A stretch of DNA of 35,326 bases, from NCBI GenBank assembly GCA_001577345.1, contig LSLI01000019.1, forward strand, positions 1 to 35,326, in the 5' to 3' direction. How positions within the stretch are numbered: the first letter of the stretch is position 1; each line of letters opens with the position of its first letter. Shown one piece after another: positions 2,763 through 29,586 of the stretch. The notes under the pieces are model-generated. The model was not told the origin of the DNA. It made no database searches and saw only the letters and a program-made list of their open reading frames with translations. Made by a program: the position numbers and the translations under genes. Source of the stretch: Candidatus Gallionella acididurans. Lineage in GTDB: Bacteria; Pseudomonadota; Gammaproteobacteria; Burkholderiales; Gallionellaceae.

Positions 2763-2775
2763 CCGGTAAAAATCG

Positions 2776-4008
2776 ATGCCTATGAAAAATGAGTTCCCAT
2801 TTGTTCTGACCATCAACGGCGGCTCGTCGAGCATCAAGTTCGCGCTGTTCGAGGCCGGAATCACCCTCCGCAGGATTCTGCAAGGCGGGATCGAACGGAT
2901 AGGATTGCCGGAGGCCGGCTTGCGGGTAACAGGCTTGAGCCAGACGGACAACTTTTCGCGCCCGGTGACGGCACCGGATCATACGGCGGCGGCGGCAGTT
3001 CTGATGGACTGGATCGAGGAACGCTGCAGCCATGATGGATTGACCGCAGTGGGACATCGCGTGGTACACGGCGGCCCGAAATACGGCCGCCCGCAGCGCA
3101 TCACGGCGGAGATGATAGACGAGCTGCATCGGCTCAGTCCGTTCGATCCCGAGCATCTGCCCGAAGAAATCCTGTTGACCGAGATGTTTCATCGCCGCTT
3201 TCCCGACCTTGTTCAGGTGGCGTGCTTCGACACGGCCTTTCACGATGATCTGCCGCGTGTAGCGCGGCAGTTGCCTATCCCGCGCCGCTACGAAGCGCAA
3301 GGGGTGCGGCGCTACGGGTTTCACGGTTTGTCATATGAATTTCTGATGGAGGAACTCGCCCGCCTCGGCGACCCTGCCGCGAGCAGGGGAAGGGTGATCC
3401 TTGCCCATCTCGGCAATGGCGCGAGCCTTGCGGCGGTGCGCGACGGCAAGAGCATCGACACCAGCATGGGTTTCACACCAGCGGCGGGCTTGGTGATGAG
3501 CACCCGTTCCGGCGACCTTGATCCGGGGCTGGTCTGGTACTTGGCGCGCACTGAAAAAATGGGCGCAAAACAATTCAACGAGATGGTCAATTTTCAGTCC
3601 GGACTGCTCGGGATATCGGAAACCAGTTCCGACATGCGTGATCTGCTGGACTGCGAGGCGCATGATGAGCGCGCAGCTGAAGCGATCGCGCTGTTCTGCT
3701 ACCAGGCCAGGAAATGGATAGGTGCTTATGCCGCGGTGTTGGGCGGACTGGACACGCTGGTTTTCGCCGGCGGCATCGGCGAAAACGCGCAGCTTGTGCG
3801 TGAACGGATATGCGACAGACTCGGCTTTCTGGGCATTGAACTGGACCGGCAGCGCAATGCCGGGCATGCACCGCTGATATCGCCGGACACCGGCCGCGTC
3901 AGGGTGCGGGTCATACATACCGACGAGGAACTGATGATTGCGCGCTCCGTCACCCGCGTTCTCAATCTCAATCTCAATCTCAACGCAAAAGGGAAACTTA
4001 AACCATGA
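2776..4008 (+). CDS. ackA: Acetate kinase
   Basis: Converts acetyl phosphate plus ADP to acetate plus ATP (reversible) in the cytosol. The 410-residue length is normal. Conserved elements are visible in order: the N-terminal phosphate loop with Asn14 ([11 protein letters not shown]), the Arg of GHRVVHGG, the catalytic Asp of CFDTAFHDD, the Arg of STRSGDLDP, the GGIGENA nucleotide loop and the Glu of [10 protein letters not shown]. The N-terminal loop reads NGGSSS where NSGSSS is usual. ATG codons at 2776 and 2782 are both possible; neither has a clear Shine-Dalgarno sequence, so coupling to the gene upstream is likely. The last residues, LNLNLNLN, come from a repeated CTCAAT hexamer at 3961-3984 and are not part of the kinase fold. 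The stop overlaps the phosphoketolase start as ATGA, fitting a phosphoketolase-acetate kinase ATP-yielding pair. Confidence 0.96.
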
Positions 4009-6371
4009 AATCCTCCACACTTACACCCGAGCTGTTGCACAAGATCGACGCCTACTGGCGTGCCGCCAACTATCTGTCGGTCGGCCAGATCTTTCTTTAC
4101 GCCAATCCCCTGCTGAAGCGGCCGCTGGCACTCGCCGATGTCAAAAAAATGTTGCTCGGGCACTGGGGTACCACGCCCGGGCAGAACTTCATCTACGCGC
4201 ACTTGAACCGGGTCATCAAGAAATACGACCTCGACATGATCTACGTTTCCGGGCCCGGCCATGGCGGCCCTGCGGTGGTCGGCAACACCTACCTCGAGGG
4301 CACCTACAGCGAGATCTATCCCGACATCAGCCAGGATGAGGCCGGGCTGCAGAAGCTGTTCCTGCAGTTCTCCTTTCCCGGCGGCATTCCCAGCCATGCC
4401 GCGCCGGAGACGCCAGGCTCAATCCATGAAGGCGGTGAGCTGGGTTATTCGCTCAGCCATTCGTTCGGGGCGGCGTTCGACAATCCGGAGTTGATCGTCG
4501 CTTGTGTGGTCGGCGACGGCGAGGCGGAAACCGGGCCGCTGGCCACCGCATGGCATTCCAACAAGTTCCTCGACCCGGTTACCGATGGCGCGGTACTGCC
4601 TATCCTGCACCTCAACGGCTACAAGATTTCCAATCCTACCGTGCTCGCCCGAATCGAACATGAGGAACTGGAGCAGTTGCTGCGCGGCTACGGATGGACA
4701 CCGATCTTCGTCGAGGGTTACGAGCACGAACAGATGCATCAGGCGATGGCCGCCGCGCTCGACACGGCGGTGGAGAGAATCAAACAAATCCAGCAGCACG
4801 CCCGTTCCAGCGGAGACACCGCCCGCCCGCGCTGGCCGATGCTAGTCCTGAAGTCGCCCAAGGGCTGGACCGGGCCCAAGGTGGTCGATGGCCTGCAGAT
4901 CGAGGGCACGTTCCGCGCGCACCAGGTGCCGTTACACCCGAATACTCATCCCGAACACCTCAAGCTGCTGGAAGACTGGATGAGGAGCTACCGGCCGGAG
5001 GAACTTTTCGATGAACAGGGCAGGCTCAAACCGGAACTGGCCGAACTCGCACCGACAGGAGAGCGACGCATGGGCGCGAATCCCCATGCCAACGGCGGCA
5101 TATTGCTGCGCGACCTGCGCATGCCGGATTTTCGCGGCTATGCAGCTAGGGTACCCGTGCCCGGCGCGCCCGGCATCGGCGACACGCATGTGCTTGGACC
5201 TTTCCTGCGCGATATCGCGAAGCTGAACGGTGAACAGCGCAATTTCCGCGTGTTCGGCCCCGACGAGACGCTTTCCAACGGACTGGAAGCGTTGTTTGAT
5301 GTGACCGAGCGCCAGTGGGATGCGGCCACCGTGCCGAACGACCAATGGCTGGCACCCAGCGGGCGCGTGATGGAAATGCTCAGCGAACACCAGTGCGAAG
5401 GCTGGCTCGAGGGCTACCTGCTCACCGGCAGGCACGGGCTGTTCAACTGCTACGAGGCGTTCATCCACATCATCGATTCGATGTTCAATCAGCACGCCAA
5501 GTGGCTGGAAGTCACTGCACGCCTGCCGTGGCGAAGGAAGATCGCATCGCTCAATTACCTGTTGGCCTCGCATGTCTGGCGCCAGGATCACAATGGCTTC
5601 ACCCATCAGGATCCGGGTTTCATCGATGTCGCCTTGAACAAGAAGGCCTCGATTGTGCGTGTGTATTTTCCGCCCGACGCCAATTGTTTGTTGTCGGTGA
5701 TGGACCACTGCCTGCGCAGCCGCCACTACGTGAACATCGTGGTCGCGGGCAAGCACCCGGCGCCGCAGTGGCTGGCGATGGACGCCGCCGTCAAGCACTG
5801 CACCGAGGGCATCGGCATCTGGCAATGGGCCAGCAACGACCAGGCTGTTGCACCCGACGTGGTCATGGCCTGCTGCGGCGACGTGCCCACATTGGAGACC
5901 CTTGCCGCCGTCGCTATCCTGCGCGAGCACTTGCCCGAGCTGAAGATCCGTGTGGTCAACGTCGTCGATCTGATGAAGCTGCAGCCGCAGACCGAGCATC
6001 CGCACGGCTTGAGCGACATGGATTTCGACGAGCTGTTCACCCGGGACAAGCCGGTGATCTTCGCCTACCACGCCTACCCGTGGCTGATCCACCGGCTGAC
6101 CTACCGCCGCACCAACCACGACAACATCCATGTGCGCGGCTACAAGGAAGAGGGCACCATCACGACGCCGTTCGACATGACGGTGCTGAACGATATGGAC
6201 CGCTTCCATCTGGTGATGGACGCGATAGACCGCCTGCCGCAGACCGGGGACAAGGGCATCTATCTGAAGCAGCAGCTCAAGGACAAGCTGATCGAACACA
6301 AACAGTATATCAACAAGCACGGCGAAGACATGCCGGAGATCCGCAACTGGAAGTGGAGCAATGCCAAATGA
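4005..6371 (+). CDS. xfp: Xylulose-5-phosphate/fructose-6-phosphate phosphoketolase
   Basis: A thiamine-diphosphate enzyme that cleaves xylulose 5-phosphate or fructose 6-phosphate with phosphate, giving acetyl phosphate plus glyceraldehyde 3-phosphate or erythrose 4-phosphate. The 788 residues are the usual length. The N-terminal signature is visible ([13 protein letters not shown], then [11 protein letters not shown] and SGPGHGGPA), followed by the ThDP/Mg motif [11 protein letters not shown] with [10 protein letters not shown], the pyrimidine domain around [20 protein letters not shown], and the C-terminal end [14 protein letters not shown]. The start overlaps the ackA stop by 4 bp, so the product acetyl phosphate passes directly to the neighbour's enzyme. 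Substrate preference (X5P only or dual) cannot be read from the sequence. A small paralogous scrap of the C-terminus lies at 12852-12950. Confidence 0.97.
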
Positions 6372-6520
6372 ATGCGCTTGAACATATAAACACCGTGAGG
6401 ATGCTGGTCGCCACCGACCAAGAGCCTGCTGGCGATGGAGAGCGCATCAGTCTGACAACAAGCATTCCGCAATCCACGAAATCTTCAACAGCGCAAAGAC
6501 GGGAGGAGCATTTACTATGA
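6368..6520 (+). CDS. Possible 50-residue protein coupled to xfp and the P-type ATPase
   Basis: An ATG at 6368 overlaps the xfp stop (ATGA) and the TGA at 6518-6520 overlaps the ATPase start (ATGA). The product begins [12 protein letters not shown] and ends RREEHLL; it is polar, with no membrane segment or family I recognise. Four-base overlaps at both ends are the pattern seen elsewhere in this operon, which is the main argument for translation. The counter-argument is that the ATPase has its own strong Shine-Dalgarno sequence (GGGAGGA near 6501) inside this ORF, so the stretch may simply be a spacer. Confidence 0.4.
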
Positions 6521-9500
6521 AACCCAATACCGATTCGCCCAAGGCTCCTGAATCGAAGCCCGAGGCCAAACCCGAAGCTAAACCCGAAGCCAAATCCGAC
6601 AAATCCGACGCGAAACCCGATGCAAAGCCGGTGGGTGCCGCAACGGATAACCCGACCAGCGGCCTGACGAGCGACGAGGCCGGACGCCTGCTGAAGAAGT
6701 TCGGCCCCAACGCGATGCCGGATACGAGCATGCACCCGTTGCGCATGGCGCTGGAAAAATTCTGGGCGCCGGTGCCGTGGATGCTCGAGGCTGCGATCGT
6801 GCTCGAACTGGTGCTCGGCAAGTATGTCGAGGCCGCGATCATCGCCGGCCTGCTGGTGTTCAACGCGGCACTGGGACTGTTCCAGGAGAGCCGTGCGCAG
6901 GCAACTCTCGCCGCACTGAAGTCGCGGCTCGCGCTGAGCGCGTCCGCCCGGCGCGACGGCGCGTGGAAAACCGTACCCGCGGCCGAGCTGGTGCCGGGCG
7001 ACGTGGTGAAGCTCTCCCTCGGTGGCGTGGTGGCCGCGGATGTGCACATCACCGGCGGGGAAGTTCTGCTCGACCAATCCATGCTTACCGGCGAATCGGT
7101 ACCCATCGAAGCCGGCGCGGGCGTGCAAACCTTTGCCGGAGCGCTGGTGCGCCGGGGCGAGGCGGTGGCGGAGGTCACCGCGACCGGAGCGCGCACCAAG
7201 TTCGGCCGTACTGCGGAGCTGGTTCGCACCGCTCACGTCGTGAGCTCCCAGCAGAAGGCGGTGCTGCGCGTGGTGCGCAATCTCGCCGCATTCAACGGCG
7301 TCGTCATCGCGGCGCTCGTGGTCTATGCCTACTTTCTCAAGATGCCGCTGGCGGAGATCATCCCCCTCGTCCTGACGGCGGTCTTGGCGTCGATACCGGT
7401 TGCGCTGCCGGCCACGTTCACGCTGGCGGCGGCGCTCGGCGCGCGAGCCCTGGCAAAGCTGGGGGTCCTTCCGACCCGTCTGTCTGCGGTGGATGAAGCG
7501 GGAACGACGGATGTGTTGTGCGCCGACAAGACCGGCACGCTGACCCAGAATGCGCTGACGGTGACGACCGTTCATTCCATGCCCGGCTTCGACGAGGCGC
7601 ATGTTTTGGCGCTGGCCGCGCTGGCGAGCGCGGATGGCGGGCAGGACCCGGTGGATGCAGCCATTCGCGCGGCCGCTTCGAGCAAGGGCGTCTCCGACGC
7701 GCCGAAGTTAGTCAAGTTTGAGTCTTTCGATCCGGCGAAGAAGACGTCCGAGGCGACCGCGACTGATTCGAGCGGCGGCACGCAACGTATCGTGAAGGGC
7801 GCCTTTGCCGTGGTCACCGGTCTCGCACAACCGTCGCCGACCGCGGCAGCCGCGGCGAACGAACTCGAGGGGCAGGGCTTCCGGGTTCTGGCAGTGGCGG
7901 CGGGGCCGCCGACGGCGATGAAGCTGGCAGGACTCATTGCGCTGAGCGATCCGCCCCGTTCGGACTCGGCAGCGCTCGTTACCGAATTGCATGCGTTGGG
8001 CGTTCGCACCGTGATGGTGACGGGCGACGCCCCGGCGACCGCGGCCATCGTCGCGCGCGCGGTGGGGCTTGATGGTGCCGTCTGCCCGCCCGGCCCAATC
8101 CCCGACAGCGTCCACCCCGGGCAATTCGCGGTTTTCGCCGGCGTCCTCCCGGAGGACAAATACAAGCTGGTCAAGGCGTTCCAGAAGGGCGGCCATACCG
8201 TCGGCATGTGCGGCGACGGAGCCAATGACGCGCCAGCGCTGCGCCAGGCGCAGATCGGCATCGCGGTCTCGACCGCAACCGACGTCGCCAAATCGGCCGC
8301 CGGCATGGTGCTGACCGAGCCCGGGCTCGCCGGCATCGTCGCCGCGGTCAAGGAAGGGCGGATAACGTTCCAGCGCATCCTCACCTACACGCTGAATACC
8401 ATCGTCAAGAAGATCGTGACGGTGCTCTTCCTGATCGCCGGTCTGATCATGACCGGGCACGCGATCCTGACTCCGCTGCTGATGGTCATTGTGATGATCA
8501 CTGGCGACTTTCTCTCCATGTCATTGACGACGGATAATGTGCGGCCGTCGCCGATGCCGAATGCGTGGCGCATCGGCAACCTGACGATCGCCGGCGTCAC
8601 CATGGGGGTCTGCCTGCTGGCCTTCTGCAGCGGCGTCCTGGCCATCGGCAAATTCGGCATGAATCTCGAAATAGCGGCGCTGCGAACCCTGGCCTTCGTC
8701 GTCCTGGTGTTCGGCAGCCAGGCGACGCTCTATGCCATTCGCGAACGCCGGCACTTGTGGGGCACTCGTCCCAGCCTCTGGCTTGCGCTGTCGTCGGTCG
8801 CCGATATCGTGATCGCCTCGACATTGGCCATCGGCGGATTTGCCATGACATCCTTGTCGCCCCTGGTGGTGGCGGGCACGCTTGCTGCGGCGGTGGTGTT
8901 CGCATTCGTCCTGGATTTGGTGAAGGTTCCCGTATTTGTTCGCCTCGGGATCGCCGAGCCGGAGCCCAATGCCGGCCAGCCCAAGGCTTCCGACTCCAAA
9001 CCTGACGCCAAAGCCGAGCCTGAACCTGAAGCCAAAGCCAAGACACCATCCGATTTGACGACGCAGATCGCCAAACGATCCTACGAACTCTACGAGGAGC
9101 GAGGTCGTCAGGACGGCCGAGCAGTTCAGGACTGGGAGAAGGCGGAACGGGAGATTCGGAAAGCTGAACCCGAAGCCAGCCCGGAACCCAAGCCCGAAGC
9201 CAAGCCCGAAGCCAAGCCCGAAGCCAAGCCCGAAGCCAAGCCCGAAGCCAAGCCCGAAGCCAAGCCCGAAGCCAAGCCCGAAGCCAAGCCCGAAGCCAAG
9301 CCCGAAGCCAAGTCCGAAGCCAAGCCCGAAGCCAAGCCCGAAGCCAAGCCCGAAGCCAAGCCCGAAGCCAAGCCCGAAGCCAGCCCGGAGCCCAAGCCCG
9401 AAGCCAAGTCCTCGTCCGATTTGACGCCGGAGCTCGTCAAGCGAGTGCATGAACTCTACGAGGCACTGGGGCGCAAAGACGTTCAAGCAGTCGAAGAATT

Positions 9501-9546
9501 GGAGAAGGCGGAGCGCGAGAATCGGAAAGATGAACCCGGCAAATAA
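6517..9546 (+). CDS. P-type (P3A-like) proton-exporting ATPase with PEAK/DUF2934 tail
   Basis: Pumps cations, most likely protons, out of the cell using ATP. Core motifs: TGES at residues 191-194, phosphorylation site DKTGTLT starting at Asp337, [10 protein letters not shown] starting at 566, and membrane segments before and after. The stretch around Asp664 ([15 protein letters not shown]) lines up with the plant/fungal plasma-membrane H+-ATPase segment whose Asp (Asp684 in AHA2) is essential for proton transport. The protein is unusually long at 1009 residues because of additions: an N-terminal PEAK/DAK stretch (about 11-37), and after the last membrane segment a DUF2934-like helix pair (about 845-885), fifteen PEAK-type tetrapeptides (893-952) and a second DUF2934-like copy (about 967-1005). 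A strong Shine-Dalgarno sequence precedes the ATG. Proton specificity is inferred from family resemblance; the function of the tails is unknown. Confidence 0.9.
9193..9372 (+). repeat. 12-bp tandem repeat encoding PEAK
   Basis: Fifteen head-to-tail copies of cccgaagccaag, nearly identical at DNA level; unit 11 (9313-9324) begins tcc and encodes SEAK. Degenerate units flank the array (PEPK before, PEAS after). It lies in frame in the ATPase tail. Such near-perfect identity suggests recent slippage expansion, so copy number probably varies between strains and assemblies. Confidence 0.97.
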
Positions 9547-9575
9547 GCAGCCGCGCACTGCGTGCTAGCCACCTA

Positions 9576-9591
9576 AGTGTGGCAACGTACA
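9576..9591 (+). promoter_or_regulatory. TGTGYG-N4-CGYACA palindrome, copy 1
   Basis: Reads AGTGTG-GCAA-CGTACA. It lies between the P-type ATPase and the SHOCT gene, 124 bp before the SHOCT start. The flank GAGCATGCC that follows is nearly the same as after the copy at 33147, so about 25 bp are shared between two places 23.5 kb apart. The regulator is unknown. Confidence 0.5.
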
Positions 9592-9714
9592 GAGCATGCC
9601 ACGGGTGTAGCGCACAATCATCTTTGAGGTGTGATACCGGAAGCCATGGCTGCCTTTATCCGGAAAAGTGGCAGTTCCTCGAACCTGATGGCTTTAATAA
9701 CCAAGGAGAATCAA

Positions 9715-9951
9715 ATGAATCATTACTATTGGAACGACTGGTATGCGGCATGGGGTTGGATGCTTTGGTTCGGCATAGTGTTCCTGCTGTTTTCGAACAT
9801 CGGGAACTGGGGATACAGTTACCGCGCGCACCAGAAATATGACTCACTGTCACTGAAAACGGGGGACGATATTCTCAATGAGAGATACGCCCGCGGGGAG
9901 ATCAGCCGCGAAGAATACGGGCAAATGAAATCCGATATTTCCGGCAAATAG
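9715..9951 (+). CDS. Small membrane protein with C-terminal SHOCT domain
   Basis: 78 residues. One hydrophobic segment (about 14-35, rich in Trp and Phe) is followed by a charged linker and a SHOCT motif (ILNERYARGEISREEYGQMK, about 54-73). SHOCT is a short helix pair often at the end of small bacterial membrane proteins; its role is thought to be oligomerisation, but no activity is established. The ATG at 9715 is preferred over in-frame upstream codons because AAGGAG lies just before it at the right distance. It stands between the P-type ATPase and the aldolase in the same direction. A second, more degenerate SHOCT protein is at 33754-33969. Confidence 0.85.
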   Translation: MNHYYWNDWYAAWGWMLWFGIVFLLFSNIGNWGYSYRAHQKYDSLSLKTGDDILNERYARGEISREEYGQMKSDISGK

Positions 9952-10004
9952 CAAACGGCAGTTGACCCGGAATTCAGGAAGTAACCGCGGTTGGCATTTT
10001 AATC

Positions 10005-10029
10005 GGGTGCCCTGCATCGGTCGGCACCC
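10005..10029. other. Stem-loop between SHOCT gene and 59-residue ORF
   Basis: A perfect 7-bp stem (GGGTGCC / GGCACCC) with an 11-nt loop. No T-run follows on either strand, so it is not a classical terminator; it could be an mRNA processing or stability element. Confidence 0.35.
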
Positions 10030-10056
10030 ATATCAAACAGGCTTGGGAGTTGCGAG

Positions 10057-10236
10057 ATGACAAAAGACGAAACAAGAAAGATATTGTCGGACGATATCGA
10101 TAATTTTCGAGTGAAAGCCAAATACTACGAGTCGCTGCATTTGTTTGAGGCGGAAAAATATGCAGACAACCTTGCCTCAAACATCGAACTGGCACTGACG
10201 ACAATGCCCTCCGATGATGATCCGGAGATTTCCTGA
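10057..10236 (+). CDS. Hypothetical 59-residue acidic protein
   Basis: Starts MTKDETRKILSDDIDNF and ends SDDDPEIS. Composition is strongly charged and helical, with alternating Asp/Glu and Lys/Arg, and no membrane segment. A short purine-rich sequence (GGGAG) lies before the ATG. It is co-directional with the aldolase 116 bp downstream. I do not recognise a family; the regular amphipathic helix pattern (YYESLHLFEAEKYADNLASN) makes coding more likely than chance. Confidence 0.55.
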   Translation: MTKDETRKILSDDIDNFRVKAKYYESLHLFEAEKYADNLASNIELALTTMPSDDDPEIS

Positions 10237-10285
10237 AATACGCTATTCTGTTATATATGCCCTGACCGCAACAAGGAAGGCAGCC

Positions 10286-10360
10286 ATGGGCCGCCGGGCA
10301 ACGCGTGACCGGATGGTTGCAAACCTTTTGCTGGAAGTGGAGGTGATACAAGATGAATGA
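10286..10360 (+). CDS. Possible 24-residue leader peptide before aldolase
   Basis: The ATG at 10286 has AAGGAAGG just upstream, and the frame ends at 10358-10360, overlapping the aldolase start. Product MGRRATRDRMVANLLL... has no recognisable family. It could translate as a coupling leader, but the aldolase has its own GGAGGTG ribosome site, so this is tentative. Confidence 0.25.
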   Translation: MGRRATRDRMVANLLLEVEVIQDE

Positions 10361-11381
10361 GCAAGCGCTGATGGACATCGCGAAGGTGCTGGTTGCCGGC
10401 GACAAGGGACTGCTGGCGATGGATGAAAGCAATCCAACCTGCAACAAACGATTTGCCGGGTTGGGAATTCCCCAAACAGAAAAGACGCGGCAAGCCTGGC
10501 GGGAGTTAATCGCGACCACACCCGGCCTTGCTGAGTGCATCAGCGGTGCGATCCTCTATGACGAGACTATCCGCCAGCGAAACAAACAAGGCACTCCGCT
10601 CATCAAGACCATCACTGATGCGGGCATCATTCCCGGCATCAAAGTTGACGCCGGCGCAAAGGACATGGCGGGTCATCCCGGAGAAAAGATGACCGAAGGT
10701 CTCGACGGATTGCGCGACCGCCTCGGCGAATATTCCCAAATGGGCGCCCGCTTCGCCAAATGGCGTGCGGTGATCGCTTTGGGCGAGGGTATTCCCAGCC
10801 GGGCTTGTATCGAGGCCAGCGCGCAGGCGTTGGCTCGCTATGCGGCGTTGTGCCAGGAAGCCGGACTGGTCCCGGTCGTCGAGCCGGAAGTGCTGATGGA
10901 AGGCGACCACACCCTGGCGCAGTGTTTCGAGACAACGGAGGAAGTTCTGCGCGCGGTTTTCAGGCAGCTGTACATACAAGGGGTGATGCTGGAGGGAGTG
11001 ATCCTGAAACCCAGCATGGTGCTTCAGGGGTTGGCCTGCCCCAAGCTGGAAACGGTGGAAGAAGTGGCCGATGCCACGGTGAAGTGCCTGTTGCGGGCCG
11101 TCCCCGCCGCTGTTCCGGGAATTGCGTTCTTGTCGGGGGGGCAAAGTGGCGAACTGGCCTCGGCCCGCTTGAACGCGATGAATCTCCGCTTCAAGTCGCG
11201 GTTGCCGTGGGCGCTGGCGTTTTCGTTTGCCCGCGCCATCCAGCGACCAGCCATGGAAATATGGTCGGGCCGGGACGCCAACGTGGAAGCGGCTCAACAG
11301 GCGCTGCTCCACCGGGCCAGGTGCAACCGCGCTGCCCGCCGCGGCGAATACAGCGCCGCGATGGAAGCCACCGGCGCATGA
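10353..11381 (+). CDS. Fructose-bisphosphate aldolase, class I
   Basis: Cleaves fructose 1,6-bisphosphate to dihydroxyacetone phosphate and glyceraldehyde 3-phosphate, or the reverse, through a lysine Schiff base and without metal. The 342 residues match the eukaryote-type class I family. Visible motifs are GLLAMDES near the N-terminus, ILYDETIRQ, GIIPGIKVD, PVVEPEVLMEGDH, Schiff-base Lys219 in GVILKPSMVL, and FLSGGQSGELAS. GGAGGTG sits 9 bp before the ATG. It overlaps the next gene by ATGA, so aldolase and phosphatase are translationally coupled. In the gluconeogenic direction it would supply sugar phosphate to the phosphoketolase encoded 4 kb upstream. Confidence 0.96.
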   Translation: MNEQALMDIAKVLVAGDKGLLAMDESNPTCNKRFAGLGIPQTEKTRQAWRELIATTPGLAECISGAILYDETIRQRNKQGTPLIKTITDAGIIPGIKVDAGAKDMAGHPGEKMTEGLDGLRDRLGEYSQMGARFAKWRAVIALGEGIPSRACIEASAQALARYAALCQEAGLVPVVEPEVLMEGDHTLAQCFETTEEVLRAVFRQLYIQGVMLEGVILKPSMVLQGLACPKLETVEEVADATVKCLLRAVPAAVPGIAFLSGGQSGELASARLNAMNLRFKSRLPWALAFSFARAIQRPAMEIWSGRDANVEAAQQALLHRARCNRAARRGEYSAAMEATGA

Positions 11382-12025
11382 TGAAGACAGACAAACCCGA
11401 CTCCCTGCACCTGTATCTCATTCGGCACGGCGAAACCGAGTGGTCGCTGTCGGGTCGGCATACCGGCCGCACGGACATTCCGTTGACCCGGAACGGCGAG
11501 GACGAGGCGCGTGAACTGGGCAAGCACCTCGTGGCTATCCCGTTTGCACATGTGCTGACCAGTCCGCTCAAGCGCGCACGGCAAACCTGTGAATTGGCCG
11601 GCTTGGATAAAGCCCCTGAAATGGAACCCGAACTGGCCGAATGGGATTATGGCGATTACGAAGGACAACGCTCTGTGGACATCCACAAGGCACGGCCGGA
11701 CTGGAATGTTTATCAGGACGGTTGTCCTCGCGGTGAAATGCCCGCACAGATTGCCGGTCGTGTTGATCGGCTCATCGCCCGCTTGCGCAAGCTGGACGGG
11801 AATGTCGCACTGTTTACCCACGGTCAGGTGGGCAGCGTCCTGGCAGCACGCTGGATCGGATTGGCGGTGGCCGAAGCACGGCATTTCTCGCTGGGTACGG
11901 CATCGCTCAGCATACTTGCCTTCGACCCCCACCAGCCTGATGTGCCGGTTATCGCATTGTGGAATGCGGCCGCCCGGCTGGGTGCGCTGCCGAACAGAAC
12001 CAATCGGGATCCGCGCTTAAGCTGA
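11378..12025 (+). CDS. Histidine phosphatase family protein (phosphoglycerate mutase-like)
   Basis: 215 residues. The phosphohistidine motif LIRHGETEW places the catalytic His at residue 17. SPLKRARQTCELA supplies the second Arg, the acid/base Glu lies in ELAEWDYGDYEG, and the second His is in LFTHGQVGS. The superfamily includes phosphoglycerate mutases, cobalamin/ribazole phosphatases and sugar bisphosphatases, and sequence alone does not separate them. The ATGA overlap with class I aldolase makes a sugar-phosphate substrate plausible, for example dephosphorylation of fructose 1,6-bisphosphate to fructose 6-phosphate, a phosphoketolase substrate. That assignment is an inference from neighbourhood only. 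Confidence 0.85.
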   Translation: MMKTDKPDSLHLYLIRHGETEWSLSGRHTGRTDIPLTRNGEDEARELGKHLVAIPFAHVLTSPLKRARQTCELAGLDKAPEMEPELAEWDYGDYEGQRSVDIHKARPDWNVYQDGCPRGEMPAQIAGRVDRLIARLRKLDGNVALFTHGQVGSVLAARWIGLAVAEARHFSLGTASLSILAFDPHQPDVPVIALWNAAARLGALPNRTNRDPRLS

Positions 12026-12100
12026 TTTTGTTACCGAGTTCCAGCCTGGTTTCCATTCGTTGGACAACCGCTGTTCGACCTTCACTAAGGAGAAGCAAAA

Positions 12101-12835
12101 ATGTTACGCAGCATGAACGATCTGGAGGGTTACACCATCCACGCGACCGACGGCACCATTGGTCACGTGAAAGATTTCTATTTCGATGACCGGGCGTGGG
12201 TTATCCGCTATCTCGTTGTCGACACAGGTAGCTGGCTTTTGAGTCGAAAAGTGCTGATCTCGCCTATCGCGATCGGCCACCCGGACTGGGCCGAAAAGGT
12301 GTTGCCCGTCTCGATTACGAAAGAGCAGGTGAAAAACAGCCCCGACATTGACACCGAAAAGCCGGTTTCGCGGCAGCACGAAATAGACTACTTCGGGTAT
12401 TACGGCTACCCGTTTTATTGGGGCGGTGCCGGCATCTGGGGCGGGGGTATTTACCCGAACATGATGATGCCGGACTACGCCGGCTTAGAATCCAAACCGC
12501 CTGGCGAAGGTCCGGGAGCGGACGAAGCTTACGCACGCGCTGACACGGCAAAGCACCAGCATGACGATCCCCACCTGCGCAGCTGTAAAGAGGTAATGGA
12601 CTATCACATTGAGGCGACCGATGGTGACGTCGGCCACGTACAGGGCATGCTCGTCGACGAGGAAACCTGGGCCATTCAATACCTGATTGTGAACACCAGC
12701 AATTGGTGGCTCGGTCATCAGGTGCTCATCGCGCCGCACTGGATCAAGGACGTGAGCTGGTCCGACGCGACCGTTTCGCTCAATCTGACACGGCAAGCCG
12801 TGAAAGAGGCCCCGCTGTACGACCCGGCGGCATAA
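12101..12835 (+). CDS. Double PRC-barrel domain protein
   Basis: 244 residues with two PRC-barrel repeats, about 1-80 (DLEGYTIHATDGTIGHVKDFYFDDRAW, cited here in part) and about 163-242 (YHIEATDGDVGHVQGMLVDEE), joined by a Gly/Tyr/Trp-rich linker (YYGYPFYWGGAGIWGGG). Each repeat has the GxIGxVxD and WxIRYLVVDTxxW pattern. PRC-barrels are protein- or RNA-binding beta folds; free-standing double forms are common in soil and freshwater bacteria and often lie near stress genes, without a defined activity. CTAAGGAG precedes the ATG. It stands alone between the aldolase pair and the N-ATPase operon in the same direction. Confidence 0.9.
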   Translation: MLRSMNDLEGYTIHATDGTIGHVKDFYFDDRAWVIRYLVVDTGSWLLSRKVLISPIAIGHPDWAEKVLPVSITKEQVKNSPDIDTEKPVSRQHEIDYFGYYGYPFYWGGAGIWGGGIYPNMMMPDYAGLESKPPGEGPGADEAYARADTAKHQHDDPHLRSCKEVMDYHIEATDGDVGHVQGMLVDEETWAIQYLIVNTSNWWLGHQVLIAPHWIKDVSWSDATVSLNLTRQAVKEAPLYDPAA

Positions 12836-12851
12836 CAAAGACAGAAAGCGT

Positions 12852-12950
12852 ATGAAATCGATTGACAAGCACGGTGAAGAGATGCCGGAGATTTGTAGTT
12901 GGAAATTGGAGGGGGATGCAAGCCAGAACAGGAAAGCACCGGCGAAATGA
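12852..12950 (+). pseudogene. Remnant of a phosphoketolase C-terminus
   Basis: A 32-codon frame whose residues 4-19 (IDKHGEEMPEICSWKL) match the last residues of the xfp product ([16 protein letters not shown]) almost one for one. Nothing before the ATG resembles the rest of the enzyme. It ends 34 bp before atpD. The simplest reading is that a second or ancestral xfp copy once stood directly upstream of the N-ATPase operon and was deleted down to its tail. Confidence 0.75.
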
Positions 12951-12984
12951 GTGACGCGTGCTAGATTGCAGATAGTGGAAATAA

Positions 12985-14855
<1,871 letters not shown>

Positions 14856-14863
<8 letters not shown>

Positions 14864-15194
14864 AAAACCGGAACAAAAATCCGTGACCGGCGAGACCGAA
14901 TTCAGCCAGCAGGTGGGCGAGAAGGCGGCGCGCAAGCTCAAGGCACAACGCCATGTAACACAGACGGTCTGGTCCGGCCTGGGCATGATGGGATTGATCG
15001 GCTGGTCGGTGGCGATACCCACGCTGCTCGGTGCGGCGCTGGGACTTTGGCTGGACAAGAGCTATCCCGGCGGCCACTCCTGGACGCTGATGCTGCTGGC
15101 CATCGGCCTGGGTCTGGGCTGCTTCAATGCGTGGCATTGGGTGGCCAAGGAAGATAGGGAAATTCACGGGCAGGAGGGAGGCGATCATGATTGA
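14856..15194 (+). CDS. atpQ: N-ATPase-associated membrane protein AtpQ
   Basis: 112 residues with a charged N-terminal 45 residues, then two hydrophobic helices (about 45-67 and 76-95) with the AtpI-like feature PTLLGAALGLWLDK. AtpQ is found only in N-ATPase operons, in this position between epsilon and AtpR; it is thought to help assemble the rotor ring or to bind divalent cation, without direct proof. The ATG at 14856 inside the atpC end is chosen because MSEKPEQ is a typical start and the earlier ATG at 14841 lies deeper in atpC. Confidence 0.88.
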
Positions 15195-15498
15195 TCCGTT
15201 GAGCCTGACATTCGCTATGCTGGCGGGAACCATGCTCGGAGCGATATTTTTTGGTGGCCTGTGGTGGACAGTGCGCAAGGGCGTTTCGTCCGGACACCCG
15301 GCACTGTGGTTCTCTGTCAGCATGTTGCTGCGGACTTGCATAGTCGTGCTCGGTTTCCATTTTATCCTCGGGGATAACTGGCAGAGACTGCTTGCTGGCC
15401 TGTTCGGTTTCATCATCGCGCGCATTGCCATGACGAGGCTCACACGAGCAGTGCGGCAACAAAACCAATTGGCGCAGGAGGCTGGCCATGCACCTTAG
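15187..15498 (+). CDS. atpR: N-ATPase-associated membrane protein AtpR
   Basis: 103 residues, about three membrane helices. The second carries a buried Arg (MLLRTCIVVLGF) conserved in AtpR, which has been proposed to face the ion-binding Glu residues of the c subunit. CAGGAGGGAGG lies just before the ATG at 15187, a strong ribosome site that decides this start over in-frame codons from 15127. It overlaps atpQ by 8 bp and atpB by 11 bp. Confidence 0.88.
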   Translation: MIDPLSLTFAMLAGTMLGAIFFGGLWWTVRKGVSSGHPALWFSVSMLLRTCIVVLGFHFILGDNWQRLLAGLFGFIIARIAMTRLTRAVRQQNQLAQEAGHAP

Positions 15499-16201
15499 TC
15501 CCGATGAAATCATCTTCTGGCAATCCGGCTTTGTTAAGCTCAACGCCACGATCGTTTACACATGGGGGCTGATGGCCGTGCTGGCGGTCGGCTCAAAACT
15601 TGTTACGCGCAAACTTTCCGCTGGCCTGCAGCGTACGCGCTGGCAAAACCTGCTGGAGATCGTCGTCACCGGCATCGACAAGCAAATCGCAGAGGTGGGC
15701 ATGAGCCAGCCGGAAAAATATCTGGGCTTTCTCGGTACCCTGTTCCTGTTTGTCGCGATGGCGAGCCTCTTCACCATCGTCCCGGGCTATGAACCGCCGA
15801 CCGGTTCGCTATCGACCACCGCGGCGCTGGCGATCTGTGTGTTCGTCGCGGTGCCGCTGTTCGGCATCGAGGATCAGGGGCTGGGCGGATACCTTGGAGA
15901 TTACCTGAAGCCGACGGTCATCATGCTGCCGTTCAACATCATCAGCGAACTGTCGCGCACCCTGGCCCTGGCAGTCCGCCTGTTCGGCAACATGATGAGC
16001 GGGACGATGATAATTGCCATCCTGCTGACCATCACGCCGTTCATCTTCCCGATCGCGATGAGCGCGCTCGGACTGCTGACCGGCATGGTACAGGCCTACA
16101 TCTTCAGCATCCTGGCCACGGTTTACATCGCGGCTGCCACGCGAGTCCGCAAGCCAAAGCCAGCGCCAGCACCAGAACCAGAACCGGCAGCAAAACATTG
16201 A
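15488..16201 (+). CDS. atpB: N-ATPase subunit a
   Basis: Stator membrane subunit forming the ion half-channels. 237 residues. The essential Arg is at 164 in LALAVRLFGNMMSG, within the conserved penultimate helix pair, and the final helix is TGMVQAYIFSILATVYIA. The C-terminal 18 residues (RKPKPAPAPEPEPAAKH) are an added Lys/Pro/Glu tail after the last helix, echoing the tails on alpha, beta, b and the P-type ATPase. It begins inside the end of atpR. Confidence 0.94.
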   Translation: MHLSPDEIIFWQSGFVKLNATIVYTWGLMAVLAVGSKLVTRKLSAGLQRTRWQNLLEIVVTGIDKQIAEVGMSQPEKYLGFLGTLFLFVAMASLFTIVPGYEPPTGSLSTTAALAICVFVAVPLFGIEDQGLGGYLGDYLKPTVIMLPFNIISELSRTLALAVRLFGNMMSGTMIIAILLTITPFIFPIAMSALGLLTGMVQAYIFSILATVYIAAATRVRKPKPAPAPEPEPAAKH

Positions 16202-16232
16202 AGCACCAACCACGACCAGCAAAGGAGAAATT

Positions 16233-16514
16233 ATGGACAGCATGACTATTATCGCGGTGGCATCCATTGTCACTGCCGGCATGACCATCGCCATCGGGGT
16301 GGTAGGGCCTTCGCTGGGCGAAGGGCGCGCGGTTGCGACGGCGCTGACCTCGCTGGCCCAGCAGCCCGATGCCTCCGCCACCATCACCCGGACGCTGTTC
16401 GTCGGTCTGGCGATGATTGAATCCACGGCAATCTACTGTTTCGTGGTCTCGATGATTCTCCTTTTTGCCAACCCGTTCTGGAACCATGTCATTGCGCTGG
16501 TGCCGGGAAAATAA
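16233..16514 (+). CDS. atpE: N-ATPase subunit c (rotor ring)
   Basis: 93 residues, two membrane helices. Helix 1 contains GPSLGEGRA with Glu30 inside the membrane; helix 2 contains the ion-binding Glu63 in MIESTAIYCF. The E-S-T-x-x-Y set (63, 64, 65, 68) resembles the Na+-binding pattern of Na+ F-ATPases, and a second Glu stands where those have Gln. This double-Glu form is typical of N-ATPases. Ion choice cannot be settled from sequence: Na+ was predicted for the family, but the Burkholderia pseudomallei N-type ring was reported to be H+-specific. AAGGAG precedes the ATG. Confidence 0.95.
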   Translation: MDSMTIIAVASIVTAGMTIAIGVVGPSLGEGRAVATALTSLAQQPDASATITRTLFVGLAMIESTAIYCFVVSMILLFANPFWNHVIALVPGK

Positions 16515-16517
16515 GCC

Positions 16518-17786
16518 ATGCTGATAGACTGGTTCACCGTCATCGCTCAAGTCGTCAACTTCCTTATTCTGGTGTGGTTGTTGAAGCACTTCCTCTACCG
16601 GCCGATCCTCGACGCCATCGACGCGCGTGAGAAAAGGATCGCCAAGGAGCTGGCAGACGCCGATGCGAAAAAGGTCGAAGCCCGGAAAGAGCGCGACGAG
16701 TTCCAGCATAAGAACGAGGAGTTCGAGCAGCAGCGCAGCGCGCTGATGAACAGCGTGACGGAGGAGGCGAAAACCGAACGCCAGCGCCTGCTCGATGAAG
16801 CGAGGCAGGCGGCCGACGCCCTGAGCGCCAAGCGACAGGAGGCGCTGCAAAACGATGCCCATAACCTGAACCAGGCGATCAGCCGCCGGACACAGCAGGA
16901 AGTATTCGCCATCGCGCGCAAGGCGCTAACCGATCTCGCCGCGACGAGTCTGGAAGAACGCCTGGCCGATGTGTTCACTCGCCGCTTGCGCGAGATGGAC
17001 GAGCAGACGAAAAATGGCATCGGCCAGGCACTCAAGACAGCATCTGAACCCGCGCTGGTGCGCAGTGCCTTTGACCTGCCTGCGGCCCAGCGCACCGCGA
17101 TACAACAGGTGCTCAATCAGGCCTTTTCGGCTGAGATCCCCATCCGGTTCGAGACTGCACCGGAACTGATCGGCGGCATTGAGCTCACCACGAATGGACA
17201 AAAGCTGGCGTGGAGCATCGCGGGCTACCTGGCGTCGCTGGAAAAAGGTGTAGCCGAACTGCTGAAAGAGAAGGAGAAGGCTGAAGCCCAGGCACAGGCA
17301 AAGAAACCGTCAGAATTGACACAGCGAATCGGCAAACGAGCCTACGAGCTCTACGAGGAGCATGGCCGCAAGACCGGCCATGCAGCCGAGGATTGGGAGC
17401 AGGCAGAGCACGAAATTCGGGAAAAGATTCATAAGCCCGTCAAAACCGAACCTAAGCCTGAAGCCAAAGCGAAGCCCAAGCCCGAAGCCGAACCTGAAGC
17501 CAAAGCGGAACCTGAACCACAAACCGAAGCTAAGCCTGAAAACATAGTGAAGACTAAGCATGCAGATAAAGCTGATTCTGAGTCTGGAGCTAAAACCGAG
17601 GCTAAGCCAGCAAACAAAGTCGAGCCCAAGCCTGAGGGTATACCTGAAGCCAAAGCGAAACCAGAACCAGAACCGGAAACAGAGCCGGAACCAGAAGCCA
17701 AAGCCAAGCCTGAAAATAAAGTGGCGTCTACACTTTCAGCCAAAGCTGAACTCTCGGAATCTGAGTCCGAAGTAAAGAACCAATGA
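16518..17786 (+). CDS. atpF: N-ATPase subunit b fused to delta-like domain, with DUF2934 and PEAK-like tail
   Basis: Peripheral-stalk subunit, 422 residues, far longer than a usual b subunit (about 160). Order: one N-terminal membrane helix (about 5-27), a long coiled coil (about 30-145), a delta-like C-terminal domain (about 150-250, ending [19 protein letters not shown]), a DUF2934-like motif (about 265-305, [19 protein letters not shown]), then about 115 residues of Pro/Glu/Ala/Lys-rich low complexity. The b-delta fusion explains the missing atpH and is normal for N-ATPases. The DUF2934 motif and tail are not, and they match the P-type ATPase tail in kind and order. Confidence 0.92.
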
Positions 17787-19396
17787 TCATGGAACCCGAG
17801 AGCCTCCAGAACGTTTTCGACAGCGCTTTTGCCGGAATAGGCCAGGCACGGGAAGCCTGCACGCCGCAACTGAGGTTGCAGGAAGTGGGCACGATCACCA
17901 GTATCGCGACGGGCATCGCAACGGTTACCGGTCTTCCCGGCGTGGGTTTTGAGGAGGTGCTGAAGTTTCCCTGCGATGTGTATGGCGTCGCATTCAACGT
18001 CGACGAAGACGAGATCGGTGTCGTTCTGCTGGGGGACTACTGGCAGTTGCATGCGGGAGATGAGGTCGAACGCAGGGGGCACGTGATGGACGTGCCGGTG
18101 GGTGACGGATTGATCGGGCGCATCATCAATCCGATGGGGCATCCGCTCGACGGCAACGGCCCGCTGGCATCCGGCTCGCGTTTGCCGGTCGAACGCCCGG
18201 CCGCTTCCATCATGGACCGCGCGCCCGTTACGGTCCCGCTGCAAACCGGCATCAAGGTCATCGATGCACTCATCCCGGTCGGGCGCGGCCAGCGCGAATT
18301 GATACTCGGCGACAGGCAGACCGGCAAGACCGCGATCGCGCTCGACACGATACTCAATCAGCGCGACCAGAATGTGCTGTGTGTCTATTGCGCAATCGGC
18401 CAGCGCGCATCCGGTGTGGCCAAAGTGATCGCCGCCCTGCGCGAAAATGGCGCGATGGATTACACCGTCGTGGTGGTCACCGAAGGCAACGATCCGCCCG
18501 GGCTGGCTTATATCGCGCCTTACGCCGCGACCAGCATCGCCGAGTATTTCATGGAACAGGGCCGCGACGTGCTGATCATTTACGACGATCTGACTCATCA
18601 TGCGCGTGCCTATCGCGAACTGTCTTTGCTGCTGCGCCGTCCGCCCGGACGCGAGGCCTTTCCCGGCGATATCTTTTACATTCACTCGCGGCTGCTGGAG
18701 CGCGCCACGCACTTGTGCCCGGAACTCGGCGGCGGATCGCTGACTGCGCTGCCGATCATCGAAACCGAGGCGCAGGATATTTCCGCCTACATTCCAACCA
18801 ACCTGATTTCCATCACTGACGGCCAGATTTACCTGTCGCCGTCGCTGTTCGAACTGGGTGTGCTGCCCGCAGTCGACGTCGGCAAATCCGTTTCGCGTGT
18901 CGGCGGCAAGGCGCAACACGCGGCTTACCGTGCCGTGGCGGGCGACCTCAAGCTTGCCTATGCACAGTTCGAGGAGCTGGAAACGTTCTCACGATTCGGC
19001 GCGCGGCTGGATGAAAGTACCCGCAAAATCATCGAGCACGGGCGGCGCATCCGCGCCTGCCTCAAGCAACCGGAATTCACGCCGGTATCGGTAGCTGCGC
19101 AAATCGCCGTATTGCTGGCATTGACCGCGAAACTTTTCGACAACGTGCCGATGGAGCAGATGACTGATGCCGAGCTTGCCGTGCGCGAATCGGCGGAAGA
19201 AATTCCGGCAGAGGTCAGCGCGCGTTTCGGTACAGCCGACCAGTTGAGCGATGAGGATAGGGAAGCGATCATCGCAATCGCCCGCCAGGCACTCGCACGT
19301 TTCCAGCCTGAGCCAGAAGCCAAGCCGGAGACTTCAACCAGGCCGGAATCAGATGCCAAGTCAAAACCAGAGACGGAAGCCGAGGAGATGTCATGA
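17783..19396 (+). CDS. atpA: N-ATPase subunit alpha
   Basis: Non-catalytic nucleotide-binding subunit, 537 residues. Walker A is GDRQTGKT at 176-183; the arginine finger lies in [12 protein letters not shown]. The C-terminal 27 or so residues ([18 protein letters not shown], in part) are another added acidic/basic Pro-rich tail. The start overlaps the atpF stop as ATGA; an in-frame ATG at 17789 is also possible. It sits eighth in the N-ATPase operon, next to gamma, as in other N-ATPase clusters. Confidence 0.96.
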
Positions 19397-20316
19397 GCGA
19401 CACCGCCGCGAGCCTGCGCCGCAAGATCACCAGCGCCGGAGATCTGGAATCCGTGGTGCGCACGATGAAAGCCATGGCCGCGTCGAACATCGGGCAGTAC
19501 GAGAATGCGGTGCGCTCTCTGGATGATTATTACCGGACGGTGCAACTGGGTTTGGCCGCTTGTTTTCAGCAGAATGAACCCCGGACCATGACACCAGCCA
19601 GGCACAGGAAAGCAGCGGCGATAGGGGCTGTGGTGTTTGGTTCCGACCAGGGGCTGGTTGGACAATTCAATGATGTGATGGTGGAGTTTGTCGCGGATAC
19701 GCTGGGAAAGTTGCCGGGTGAAAAAACAGTATGGGCGGTCGGCGAACGCATTCAGTCGCGCCTCGCAGACACCGACTTGTTGCCGGGGAAAGACTTCATT
19801 CTGCCGAATTCCATCAGTGCCATCACTTCGCTGGTCGGGCAGATTCTGATCGAGATTGAAAGACATCGCAAAAAAGCCGGGATAGAGCAGATTTACCTTT
19901 TTCATAATCGCCCCGGGTCCGGCGCGATTTATACCCCGGTCAGCCAACGGCTGCTGCCGCTGGACGAAGAGTGGAGACGCGCTCTGGAGGGAATCCCATG
20001 GCCGACCGGAAATTTGCCCGAGGTCATGAATGGCCGTGAACAGACGCTGCCGGCCCTGGTTCGCGAATATCTTTTTGTCTCGCTGTTCAGGGCGTGTGCC
20101 GAATCCCTGGCGAGCGAAAATGCCAGTCGCTTGGCCGCGATGCAACGCGCTGAAAAAAATATCGACGAATTGTCAGAGGACTTGAAGCGCAGCTTTCACC
20201 GTCTGCGCCAGAGCGGTATCGACGAAGAGCTATTCGACGTCGTCGCCGGTTTCGAGGCGCTGAAAGTTACTCGGAAGTCGAATGATTACCAAGAAAAACA
20301 GAAAGGATCAGAATGA
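19393..20316 (+). CDS. atpG: N-ATPase subunit gamma
   Basis: Central shaft of the motor, 307 residues. The N-terminal helix ([20 protein letters not shown], as in the family) and the C-terminal helix pair that form the coiled-coil axle are both present, with the Rossmann-like middle containing [12 protein letters not shown]. It overlaps atpA and ppk2 by ATGA at both ends. No atpH gene follows, as expected for an N-type operon where delta is fused to b. Confidence 0.92.
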
Positions 20317-21182
20317 AAATCAACATCAAGGATTTCCGCGTACCGGCGGGGAAAAAGATCAAACTCGACAGGTGGCCGACGCGGGTGAAACCGGTATACA
20401 AGTCGAAGAAACAATACAAGGAATTCCTCGAAAAGCAGGTTGAGGAACTGAGCGAACAGCAACAGCTGCACTACGCATCCAACCGTTATGCGGTATTGCT
20501 GATTTTTCAGGCGATGGACGCCGCCGGCAAGGACGGCGCCATCAGGCACGTGATGTCCGGAGTCAATCCGCAAGGCTGCCAGGTGCACAGTTTCAAGCAT
20601 CCGAGCGCGGAGGAACTGGAGCATGATTTTTTGTGGCGCACCACGCAGGCTCTGCCGGAACGCGGCCAGATCGGTATCTTCAACCGCTCCTATTACGAGG
20701 AGGTGCTGATCGTCCGGGTGCATCCGGAGATTCTGCAAGCCGAGAATATTCCGGACGGACTGACGAACAAGAAAGCCATCTGGCCGGAGCGTTATCGCTC
20801 CATCGTTGACATGGAGGAACACCTGCACCGCAACGGCACGCGTATCATCAAGTTCTTCCTGCACCTTTCGGAAGAGGAGCAACGCAAACGCTTCCTCGAA
20901 CGCATCGATCAGCCCGACAAGAACTGGAAGTTCAGCCTCGCGGATATGACCGAGCGGAAATTCTGGAAGCAGTATATGCAGGCTTACGAGGAATGCCTGA
21001 GCGCCACCAGCACGCGCGATGCGCCGTGGCATGTTGTTCCCGCCGACGACAAGGAGAATGCGCGGCTGATCATTTCCGAGATCGTTCTCGACACATTCAA
21101 GGCGCTCAAATTGGCCTATCCCAAGGCCAGCGCGGAACACCAGCGGGAATTGCAGGCGATCCGCAAACAGCTGGTGAAATAA
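20313..21182 (+). CDS. ppk2: Polyphosphate kinase 2 family protein
   Basis: Transfers phosphate between polyphosphate and nucleotides. 289 residues, one PPK2 domain: Walker [11 protein letters not shown] with Lys73, Walker B region [10 protein letters not shown], and the lid motif [14 protein letters not shown]. The overall pattern is closest to the PPK2 group whose studied members phosphorylate both AMP and ADP (class III), but class is not certain from sequence. The ATG overlaps the atpG stop, so it is effectively the tenth gene of the N-ATPase operon; AAAGGA lies just upstream. Neighbourhood suggests it regenerates ATP from stored polyphosphate when the pumps run as ATPases. Confidence 0.93.
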
Positions 21183-25333: not shown

Positions 25334-25410
25334 TGATCCCTCCCCATCGGGTTTTGTCCGGATAGTTGCGATCTGATCCTCGAAAGCCATCCGAAGATAG
25401 ATTGGCGATT

Positions 25411-25439
25411 ATCATAGACCACAATATGTAGTGTGTCTA
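25411..25439 (-). promoter_or_regulatory. Promoter of nrdD
   Basis: Reading the minus strand: TAGACA (25439-25434), 17-bp spacer, TATGAT (25416-25411), about 75 bp upstream of the chosen ATG. One NrdR-like box fills the spacer. Confidence 0.6.
25419..25434. promoter_or_regulatory. NrdR-like box, proximal
   Basis: CCACAATATGTAGTGT, close to the NrdR consensus ACACWATATATWGTGT. It overlaps the nrdD promoter spacer, a position suited to repression when dATP is high. Confidence 0.75.
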
Positions 25440-25450
25440 CACATAGAATT

Positions 25451-25466
25451 ACACTATATATTGTGA
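25451..25466. promoter_or_regulatory. NrdR-like box, distal
   Basis: ACACTATATATTGTGA. Its centre is 32 bp from that of the proximal box, three helical turns, the usual NrdR box spacing. Confidence 0.8.
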
Positions 25467-25658
25467 TTTGTAAAGTAAGGTGATGCGGGAAAGCGTCCTG
25501 ATCCGGACTGTGAGTTTGCATGTAAAACGATTTGCGGAATTTGGCGGGCAACGCTAATACCACTTTTCGTTCAAAGCCGCGTTATTGTACGGTGCGTGGG
25601 ACGCAACCCACGATTTCACTTTCGATTGAGAAATGGAATAAGGTCTCGAGGTTCTGAA

Positions 25659-26132: not shown

Positions 26133-26177
26133 GTTATCCCCTTGTATCGTGGTAGATCGTGGCCGACCAAAATCCGG

Positions 26178-27071: not shown

Positions 27072-27073
27072 GT

Positions 27074-29513: not shown

Positions 29514-29586
29514 TTTGGATTTCCTGGATTGAAATGTGTATGTGACGTACCGCATGAAAATCATGCTGCTAACCATGCACACATAA

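Follow-up and report, generated by a model that had tools for sequence, protein, structure and literature searches.

In P3A plasma-membrane H+-ATPases of the Pma1 kind, a C-terminal extension regulates the pump. Yeast Pma1 is reported to work as a hexamer (PMC8575881) and to have an autoinhibitory domain (PMC10817110, PMC11051447). For the N-ATPases, the alternate F1F0 group, PMC4154653 states that subunit b typically has a C-terminal extension of more than 100 amino acids (aa) and notes horizontal transfer, and PMC5376962 describes a proton-specific ring in which residue 30 is a second glutamate. DUF2934 (PF11154) is named in four papers of the literature searched, in three of them as a single table entry each; just one of the four also mentions ATPase, and attachment of the domain to an ion pump turned up in none of the literature searched. 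Here we analyze a stretch of 35,326 nucleotides from Candidatus Gallionella acididurans (GCA_001577345.1, LSLI01000019.1; below, the window), which is an entire contig (C19) of a 3.43-Mb draft genome. In this window, a P-type ATPase and subunit b (AtpF) of an N-ATPase, two mechanistically unrelated ion pumps, carry a DUF2934 module, referred to here as the pump tag.

A DUF2934 module shared by two pumps

The P-type ATPase (6517 to 9546; all coordinates are on the plus strand unless stated otherwise) is a protein of 1,009 aa with an N-terminal tail rich in Lys, Pro, Glu and Ala (K/P/E/A) and a tagged C-terminal tail. AtpF (16518 to 17786; 422 aa; TIGR03321, 342 bits) consists of a b core, an OSCP-like domain (residues 178 to 243), the tag and a K/P/E/A tail. 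The sequence-only reading of this DNA had claimed that both enzymes share DUF2934, and Pfam searches bear this out: the domain lies at residues 848 to 881 of the P-type ATPase (41.5 bits, E=1e-10) and at residues 266 to 301 of AtpF (35.8 bits, E=6e-9), both above the gathering cutoff of 22 bits. The two tags (9043 to 9165 and 17304 to 17426) are separated by about 8.2 kb and are 63% identical in protein and 74% identical in DNA; a pump-tag model built from 13 sequences, all from pumps, scores them at 91 and 87 bits, each being itself a row of the model. A second, divergent DUF2934 motif at the extreme C-terminus of the P-type ATPase (9412 to 9531) drew no Pfam report even at E<=10 and was found solely by the pump-tag model, of which it is not a row (43.6 bits, E=8e-11). 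Apart from its own orthologues, the closest pump tags match it at 59% identity, and none of the free DUF2934s compared exceeds 36%; the motif was found in genomes G080 and G072 and is missing in G010. Since the motifs are homologous DUF2934 domains, their likeness did not arise by independent simple-repeat growth, as had been argued from the letters; slippage explains the repeat between them alone.

In a control search of 14 well-known genomes, there were no DUF2934 matches at E<=0.01; at E<=10, 10 of the 14 yielded matches, none above the cutoff. No relative was found among solved structures, where the only matches were at chance level, and one viral-contig scan for the tag returned a single weak relative, which gives no support for viral spread. 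Helix-moment values were mixed and were not used: against shuffles, two of four segments gave 0.015 or less.

Distribution, relatedness and selection

Tagged P3A-like ATPases fall into three lineages: lineage a, in the window, G080, G072 and G010; lineage b, about 41 to 43% identical to the window protein, in G022, AHI8 and G228, as well as in G906 and a broken frame of G897; and lineage c, about 36% identical, in G234 and G256. Copper P1B ATPases also carry DUF2934, at the C-terminus in G234 and G256 and at the N-terminus in G083 (locus L172, 4129 to 6321) and G095 (L173, 3919 to 5598); the N-terminal tags diverge from the C-terminal ones yet share their tree group, and the G083 contig also holds an N-ATPase beta gene. 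Of the 39 genomes of the family in which a match to b reached E<=1e-30, 9 have a tagged b subunit, one of the tags (G882) being degenerate.

Across 76 genomes of the genus, 14 Pfam matches to DUF2934 are found within frames that are 330 aa or longer, a limit chosen after the list was seen; 12 of them are on pumps (5 P3A, 5 AtpF and 2 P1B) and 2 are on GGDEF/PAS proteins. A 299-aa frame in G076, cut by the contig end, is an additional tagged AtpF. With the tag model, a draw of 399 genomes from the order and 158 genomes of the family together gave 20 distinct strong matches (at least 65 bits), all on pumps (10 P3A, 2 P1B and 8 AtpF); 11 of these are rows of the model, and the remaining 9 are also all pumps. 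Four of the 399 order genomes have strong tags, all with two tagged pumps, and each had supplied a model row. In a draw of 398 genomes from the phylum, strong matches occurred solely in the window's own genome. PF11154 itself is present in 132 of the 399 order genomes; DUF2934 is common, and the pump subtype is rare. In plasmid scans, 41 and 49 records matched, and the 20 listed in each case included no tagged b or P3A. The tag alone matched 24 plasmid records; of the 20 listed, 13 are annotated as DUF2934 proteins, 7 are unannotated at the match and none is annotated as a pump.

Other occurrences of the domain were recorded in passing. DUF2934 lies on the N-terminal side of PAS/GGDEF diguanylate cyclase proteins (L162 in G020, 2753 to 4453; L174 in G095, 159 to 1445), and a DUF2934-like segment is present in the proteins of L178, L184 and L195, which resemble one another by eye, the first having an OmpA domain match. 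On plasmids of Pseudorhizobium flavum (L205) and Ancylobacter polymorphus (L206), a free DUF2934 gene is directly upstream of the glgP alpha-glucan phosphorylase gene. Decayed pump-tag remnants were seen at L185 (G132, 6050 to 6199), L192 and L193 (G849, G856); that of G132 is flanked by a GH94 gene on one side and a broken PPK2 gene on the other, as though this site had once held a tagged pump. One tagged N-ATPase (L118) comes from a contig of 6 kb that was binned as Acidobacteria, which reflects either transfer or misbinning.

AtpF and P3A tags share a mean identity of 61%. With an initial set of free DUF2934s, which came mostly from the window's own order, the pump tags share 31 to 35%. Closer free domains exist in Alphaproteobacteria (tblastn of the tag against plasmids, 24 records); 10 of these, when added, showed 40 to 43% mean identity and at most 58% identity to the AtpF and P3A tags. 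In the tree that includes them, the pump tags form a group with a support of 0.89, and no free protein other than remnant L185 falls inside; its 29 leaves are that remnant, both N-terminal P1B tags and 26 further pump tags; in the first tree, the support was 0.88, and the group held L185, a frame from a phylum genome (L186) and both N-terminal P1B tags. Built from 37 columns and rooted at the midpoint, these trees are modest evidence. The free DUF2934 protein of the window (32756 to 33121, minus strand; PF11154, 6e-13, 48.6 bits) belongs to another subtype, outside the pump-tag group by tree and by identities (a mean of 31 to 35% between free and pump domains), and the suggestion that it competes with the pump tags gains no support.

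Pooled ratios of nonsynonymous to synonymous divergence (dN/dS) were 0.21 for the AtpF tags (8 sequences), 0.19 for lineage b of P3A (5 sequences) and 0.13 for lineage a (4 sequences). The second motif gave 0.14 (three sequences, few changes) and one P1B pair gave 0.18, and the lineage c pair was saturated. The pairs are nonindependent and dS is often high, with no pool near 1; to judge from these ratios, the tags are under purifying selection. A recent exchange of the tag between two pumps is visible in G234, where the P3A and P1B tags have a 34-base exact run in common. The P1B tag of this genome is 76% identical in protein to the P3A tag of its own genome, versus 66% to its counterpart in G256, with P1B cores that are 93% identical, and the P3A tag is closer to its G256 orthologue (82%). 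A 29-base exact run is likewise common to the window P3A tag and the AtpF tag of G069.

The gene cluster

The two pumps belong to a cluster that starts with the genes for a GH94 phosphorylase, acetate kinase and phosphoketolase (30 to 6371; Pfam). The P-type ATPase gene follows, and after it come a SHOCT protein, a class I aldolase, a phosphoglycerate mutase-like frame and a PRC-barrel protein (9631 to 12835; Pfam matches for all except the mutase, whose name comes from reading only), the N-ATPase and, as the last gene of the cluster, PPK2, an ADP-polyphosphate phosphotransferase (20313 to 21182; NF042973, 522 bits, cutoff 450). Portions of the cluster are also present in G022, G068, G069, G010, G072, G080, G228 and G897, as well as in named metagenome genomes. 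PPK2 adjoins 4 of 5 tagged N-ATPases versus 5 of 20 untagged ones, at loci with room for it (p=0.04).

The N-ATPase genes are arranged in the order beta (12985 to 14484; TIGR03305, 885 bits), epsilon, AtpI-like (ATPase_gene1), AtpR, a and c (together 14459 to 16514; PF02823, PF09527, PF12966, PF00119 and TIGR03322), b, alpha (17783 to 19396; TIGR03324, 918 bits) and gamma (19393 to 20316; PF00231, 1e-55). AtpR is present (PF12966) and the TIGR03305, TIGR03321, TIGR03322 and TIGR03324 models all score above their cutoffs, so the enzyme is an N-ATPase; no separate delta gene was seen on reading the operon, and b has the OSCP match. The extension of b noted in PMC4154653 would correspond to this OSCP-like part. 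Read from the sequence, residue 30 of the c subunit is a Glu, and helix 2 contains another; because Glu30 is also found in the H+-specific ring described in PMC5376962, both window pumps may move protons. The P-type ATPase (Pfam E1-E2_ATPase, 1e-36; Hydrolase, 3e-20) is called P3A-like because its TIGR01647 score of 587.3 bits is below the equivalog cutoff of 615.5 bits. Among the other tagged P3A enzymes, that of G010 scores 573 bits, and those of lineages b (AHI8, 701; G228, 718) and c (1,070 and 1,073) pass.

To the right of the cluster (23285 to 30128) are genes for an anaerobic ribonucleotide reductase, a U32 peptidase, a radical SAM protein and a hemerythrin; together with the cluster, these neighbors would fit an oxygen-poor, energy-stress setting. 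Regulation through an FNR box was considered and rejected, since no site was found at <=1 mismatch, with 1.28 expected by chance. Rfam and tRNA scans of the window gave no matches.

A candidate docking tag and its alternatives

By topology, the attachment sites should face the cytosol: the C-terminus of P3A, the termini of P1B and the part of b beyond the OSCP-like domain. A short conserved module on unrelated pumps, the selection on it and a cluster of ATP-making enzymes lead us to propose, tentatively, that the DUF2934 module of about 40 residues, which is probably helical, may be a cytosolic tag by which ion pumps dock or are assembled. What the data show is that the tags are homologous and form one group, are kept by purifying selection, lie within the energy-gene cluster and, in one genome, were recently exchanged. 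It is envisioned that the tag spread among the pumps of this cluster and that tags would interact with one another or share a single cytosolic partner; tagged pumps would in this way be held together or beside a supply of substrate-level ATP from acetate kinase and phosphoketolase or from polyphosphate kinase; the array between the P-type tags would serve as a spacer. A bolder version, which we regard as improbable, is a bacterial pump scaffold in which rotary, P3A and copper pumps would form a single assembly that faces the cytosol, next to acetate kinase, phosphoketolase and polyphosphate kinase, and ATP derived from fermentation or polyphosphate would pass straight to the pumps that keep the membrane energized once respiration stops.

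The sequence-only reading had made its case depend on the co-occurrence of tailed pumps, and recurrent pairs in further genomes agree with this in part. A tagged b is accompanied by a tagged P3A other than that of the window in G022/UBA6045, G228 (on different contigs), G897 (with the P3A in a short broken frame) and AHI8; a tagged P3A is accompanied by a tagged copper ATPase in G234 and G256, and a tagged b by a tagged copper ATPase in G095. The 158 family genomes included nine with a tagged b, eight with a tagged P3A and four with both (independence, p=3e-4); much of this association may come from co-inheritance of the cluster. A tagged b without a tagged P3A was found in G068, G069, G076, G095 and G882 (the degenerate tag), and the converse was found in G010, G072, G080 and G906. 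When P3A enzymes were counted at E<=1e-130 and a genome was called tagged if any of its P3A enzymes was, both pumps are present in 13 genomes, with both tagged in four (G000, G022, G228 and G897), only b tagged in one (G069), only P3A tagged in two (G010 and G906) and neither tagged in six (G004, G006, G031, G078, G079 and G091). Some singles are former pairs: in G080 (L154, about 11650 to 12041), the first beta codons are fused to the end of gamma just before PPK2, the scar of a deleted N-ATPase. In G256, G072 and G080, all beta matches found are about 50% identical, the level to be expected of an ordinary F-type enzyme.

Several points weigh against a docking function. The nine tagged singles (five with only b and four with only P3A) compared with four b/P3A pairs rule out obligate pairing, and to this extent the earlier claim gives way, since one tailed pump is commonly found without the other; strict co-occurrence fails, and a tendency remains. 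Among the 13 genomes with both pumps, the tags are associated at p=0.086, and in G010 and G906 the P3A is tagged and the b is not. In G234, an N-ATPase beta gene lies 1.3 Mb from the tagged pumps, and there is no third tag. A long within-genome run is seen in only one of seven genomes with two tagged pumps (G234), and the window's two tags share just a 17-base run, each being closer to its orthologues. To these points must be added the modest weight of the trees and the construction of the tag model from the pumps themselves. The N-terminal P1B tags group with the other pump tags in the tree; for this reason we do not claim that they were acquired separately, and they may not have been.

The abundance of tagged singles is also an argument for an alternative that is possible, if somewhat doubtful: each tag would serve its own pump only, as a local regulator or oligomer clamp, for example, of the b dimer or in the manner of the regulatory tail of eukaryotic P3A enzymes, and the module would be shared by descent without joint action. 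The hexamer (PMC8575881) and autoinhibitory domain (PMC10817110, PMC11051447) reported for Pma1 offer precedents, and the selection seen on the tag wherever dS could be measured also speaks for it. What this alternative leaves unexplained is why different pump classes of one cluster have the same module and why, in G234, sequence was exchanged between the tags of the P3A and P1B pumps.

A second alternative concerns the repetitive DNA around the tags. Between the two P-type tags is a 12-bp tandem repeat encoding K-P-E-A units (9169 to 9408; Tandem Repeats Finder, 20 copies, 94% match), in which a central run has 15 identical 12-mers (KPEA) and one variant (KSEA). The description of two motifs around fifteen such units was therefore correct, except that the central run also includes the variant. 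The repeat is a 12-bp slippage array; it is long in the window, short in G080, almost absent in G072 and absent in G010, and from this variability among lineage a orthologues and the near identity of its central units, we conclude that the array is a recently grown spacer of no fixed length.

Low-complexity tails are present on beta (from about 14380), on alpha (from about 19298) and, in a short form, on a, as had been noted from the sequence. Many of the closest relatives of the window's N-ATPase, from several phyla and with or without DUF2934, have such K/P/E/A-rich tails on alpha, beta, a and b, and more distant N-ATPases of the genus (e.g., L048 to L062) have short ends only. Of the 39 named b relatives, 8 have DUF2934, 29 lack it even though their end is present, and 2 are cut by a contig end; most of the 29 have a K/P/E/A-rich tail, as judged by eye. 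The tails and DUF2934 are therefore separate features, of which the tails are the commoner, and the tag probably entered an already existing tail. The tails of alpha, beta and a consequently lend no support to a link between the N-ATPase and the P-type ATPase. Low-complexity beta C-termini often close with a similar E-H-A-A...H-E-S stretch at loci of several phyla, and this stretch may have a function of its own.

Repetitive K/P/E/A-coding DNA could thus have recombined neighboring pump genes, spreading the motif by hitchhiking without any joint function. The DNA runs common to tags of different pumps, the slippage array, the frequency of low-complexity tails in this N-ATPase group and the share of co-occurrence that one cluster's inheritance accounts for are all in keeping with such a process. 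We nevertheless consider it unlikely, since dN/dS is 0.13 to 0.21, with dS near or above 0.4 in most pairs, and since the tags of P3A lineages b and c have little repeat linker, which indicates that the repeat is unnecessary for the spread of the tag. A role of the tails in gating the pumps by sensing pH, polyphosphate or ionic state is very improbable: the tails are charged (K/E) and PPK2 closes the cluster in several genomes, but tail length and composition vary among orthologues, and the evidence of selection covers the DUF2934 part only.

Comparison with known systems

The recurrence of DUF2934 on mechanistically unrelated ion pumps offers a direct route to learning the function of this domain and suggests that bacteria may organize different pump classes via a shared tag. 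The cluster of GH94, acetate kinase, phosphoketolase, P3A-type ATPase, N-ATPase and PPK2 genes resembles an emergency system that would convert sugar phosphates and polyphosphate into membrane potential. No paper in the literature searched combined "phosphoketolase" with "N-ATPase" or "polyphosphate kinase 2" with "proton-efflux P-type ATPase."

Like members of the DUF2934 family, the pump tags exceed the curated cutoff; the other members met in this study are mostly short free proteins, along with GGDEF/PAS and OmpA-type proteins, all of other subtypes, and the nearest free group found is the alphaproteobacterial one. SHOCT-type modules, which are small and are appended to unrelated proteins, provide an analogy in form; a SHOCT protein adjoins the window pump. 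With other N-ATPases, the window enzyme shares its subunit set, AtpR and the TIGR033xx models, and the DUF2934 beyond the OSCP-like part is an extra, as in the other family genomes with a tagged b. Among CopA-like P1B copper ATPases, the tagged enzymes of G234, G256 and G083 pass TIGR01511, and the tagged forms add DUF2934 at the C-terminus (G234, G256) or the N-terminus (G083, G095). For the P-type pump, Rhizobium rhizogenes and Methylocella tundrae have plasmid-borne lineage a relatives, 80 to 82% identical to it, that stop before the tag. On the R. rhizogenes plasmid pC6.5d (L198, 10010 to 13204), the untagged P3A-like ATPase, 82% identical to that of the window, is directly followed by an ADP-polyphosphate phosphotransferase (PPK2) gene, and the M. 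tundrae relative is not directly followed by PPK2. Among described enzymes, the closest counterpart of the window pump is the P3A plasma-membrane H+-ATPase of the Pma1 kind: TIGR01647 is its best model, and both proteins have a C-terminal extension.

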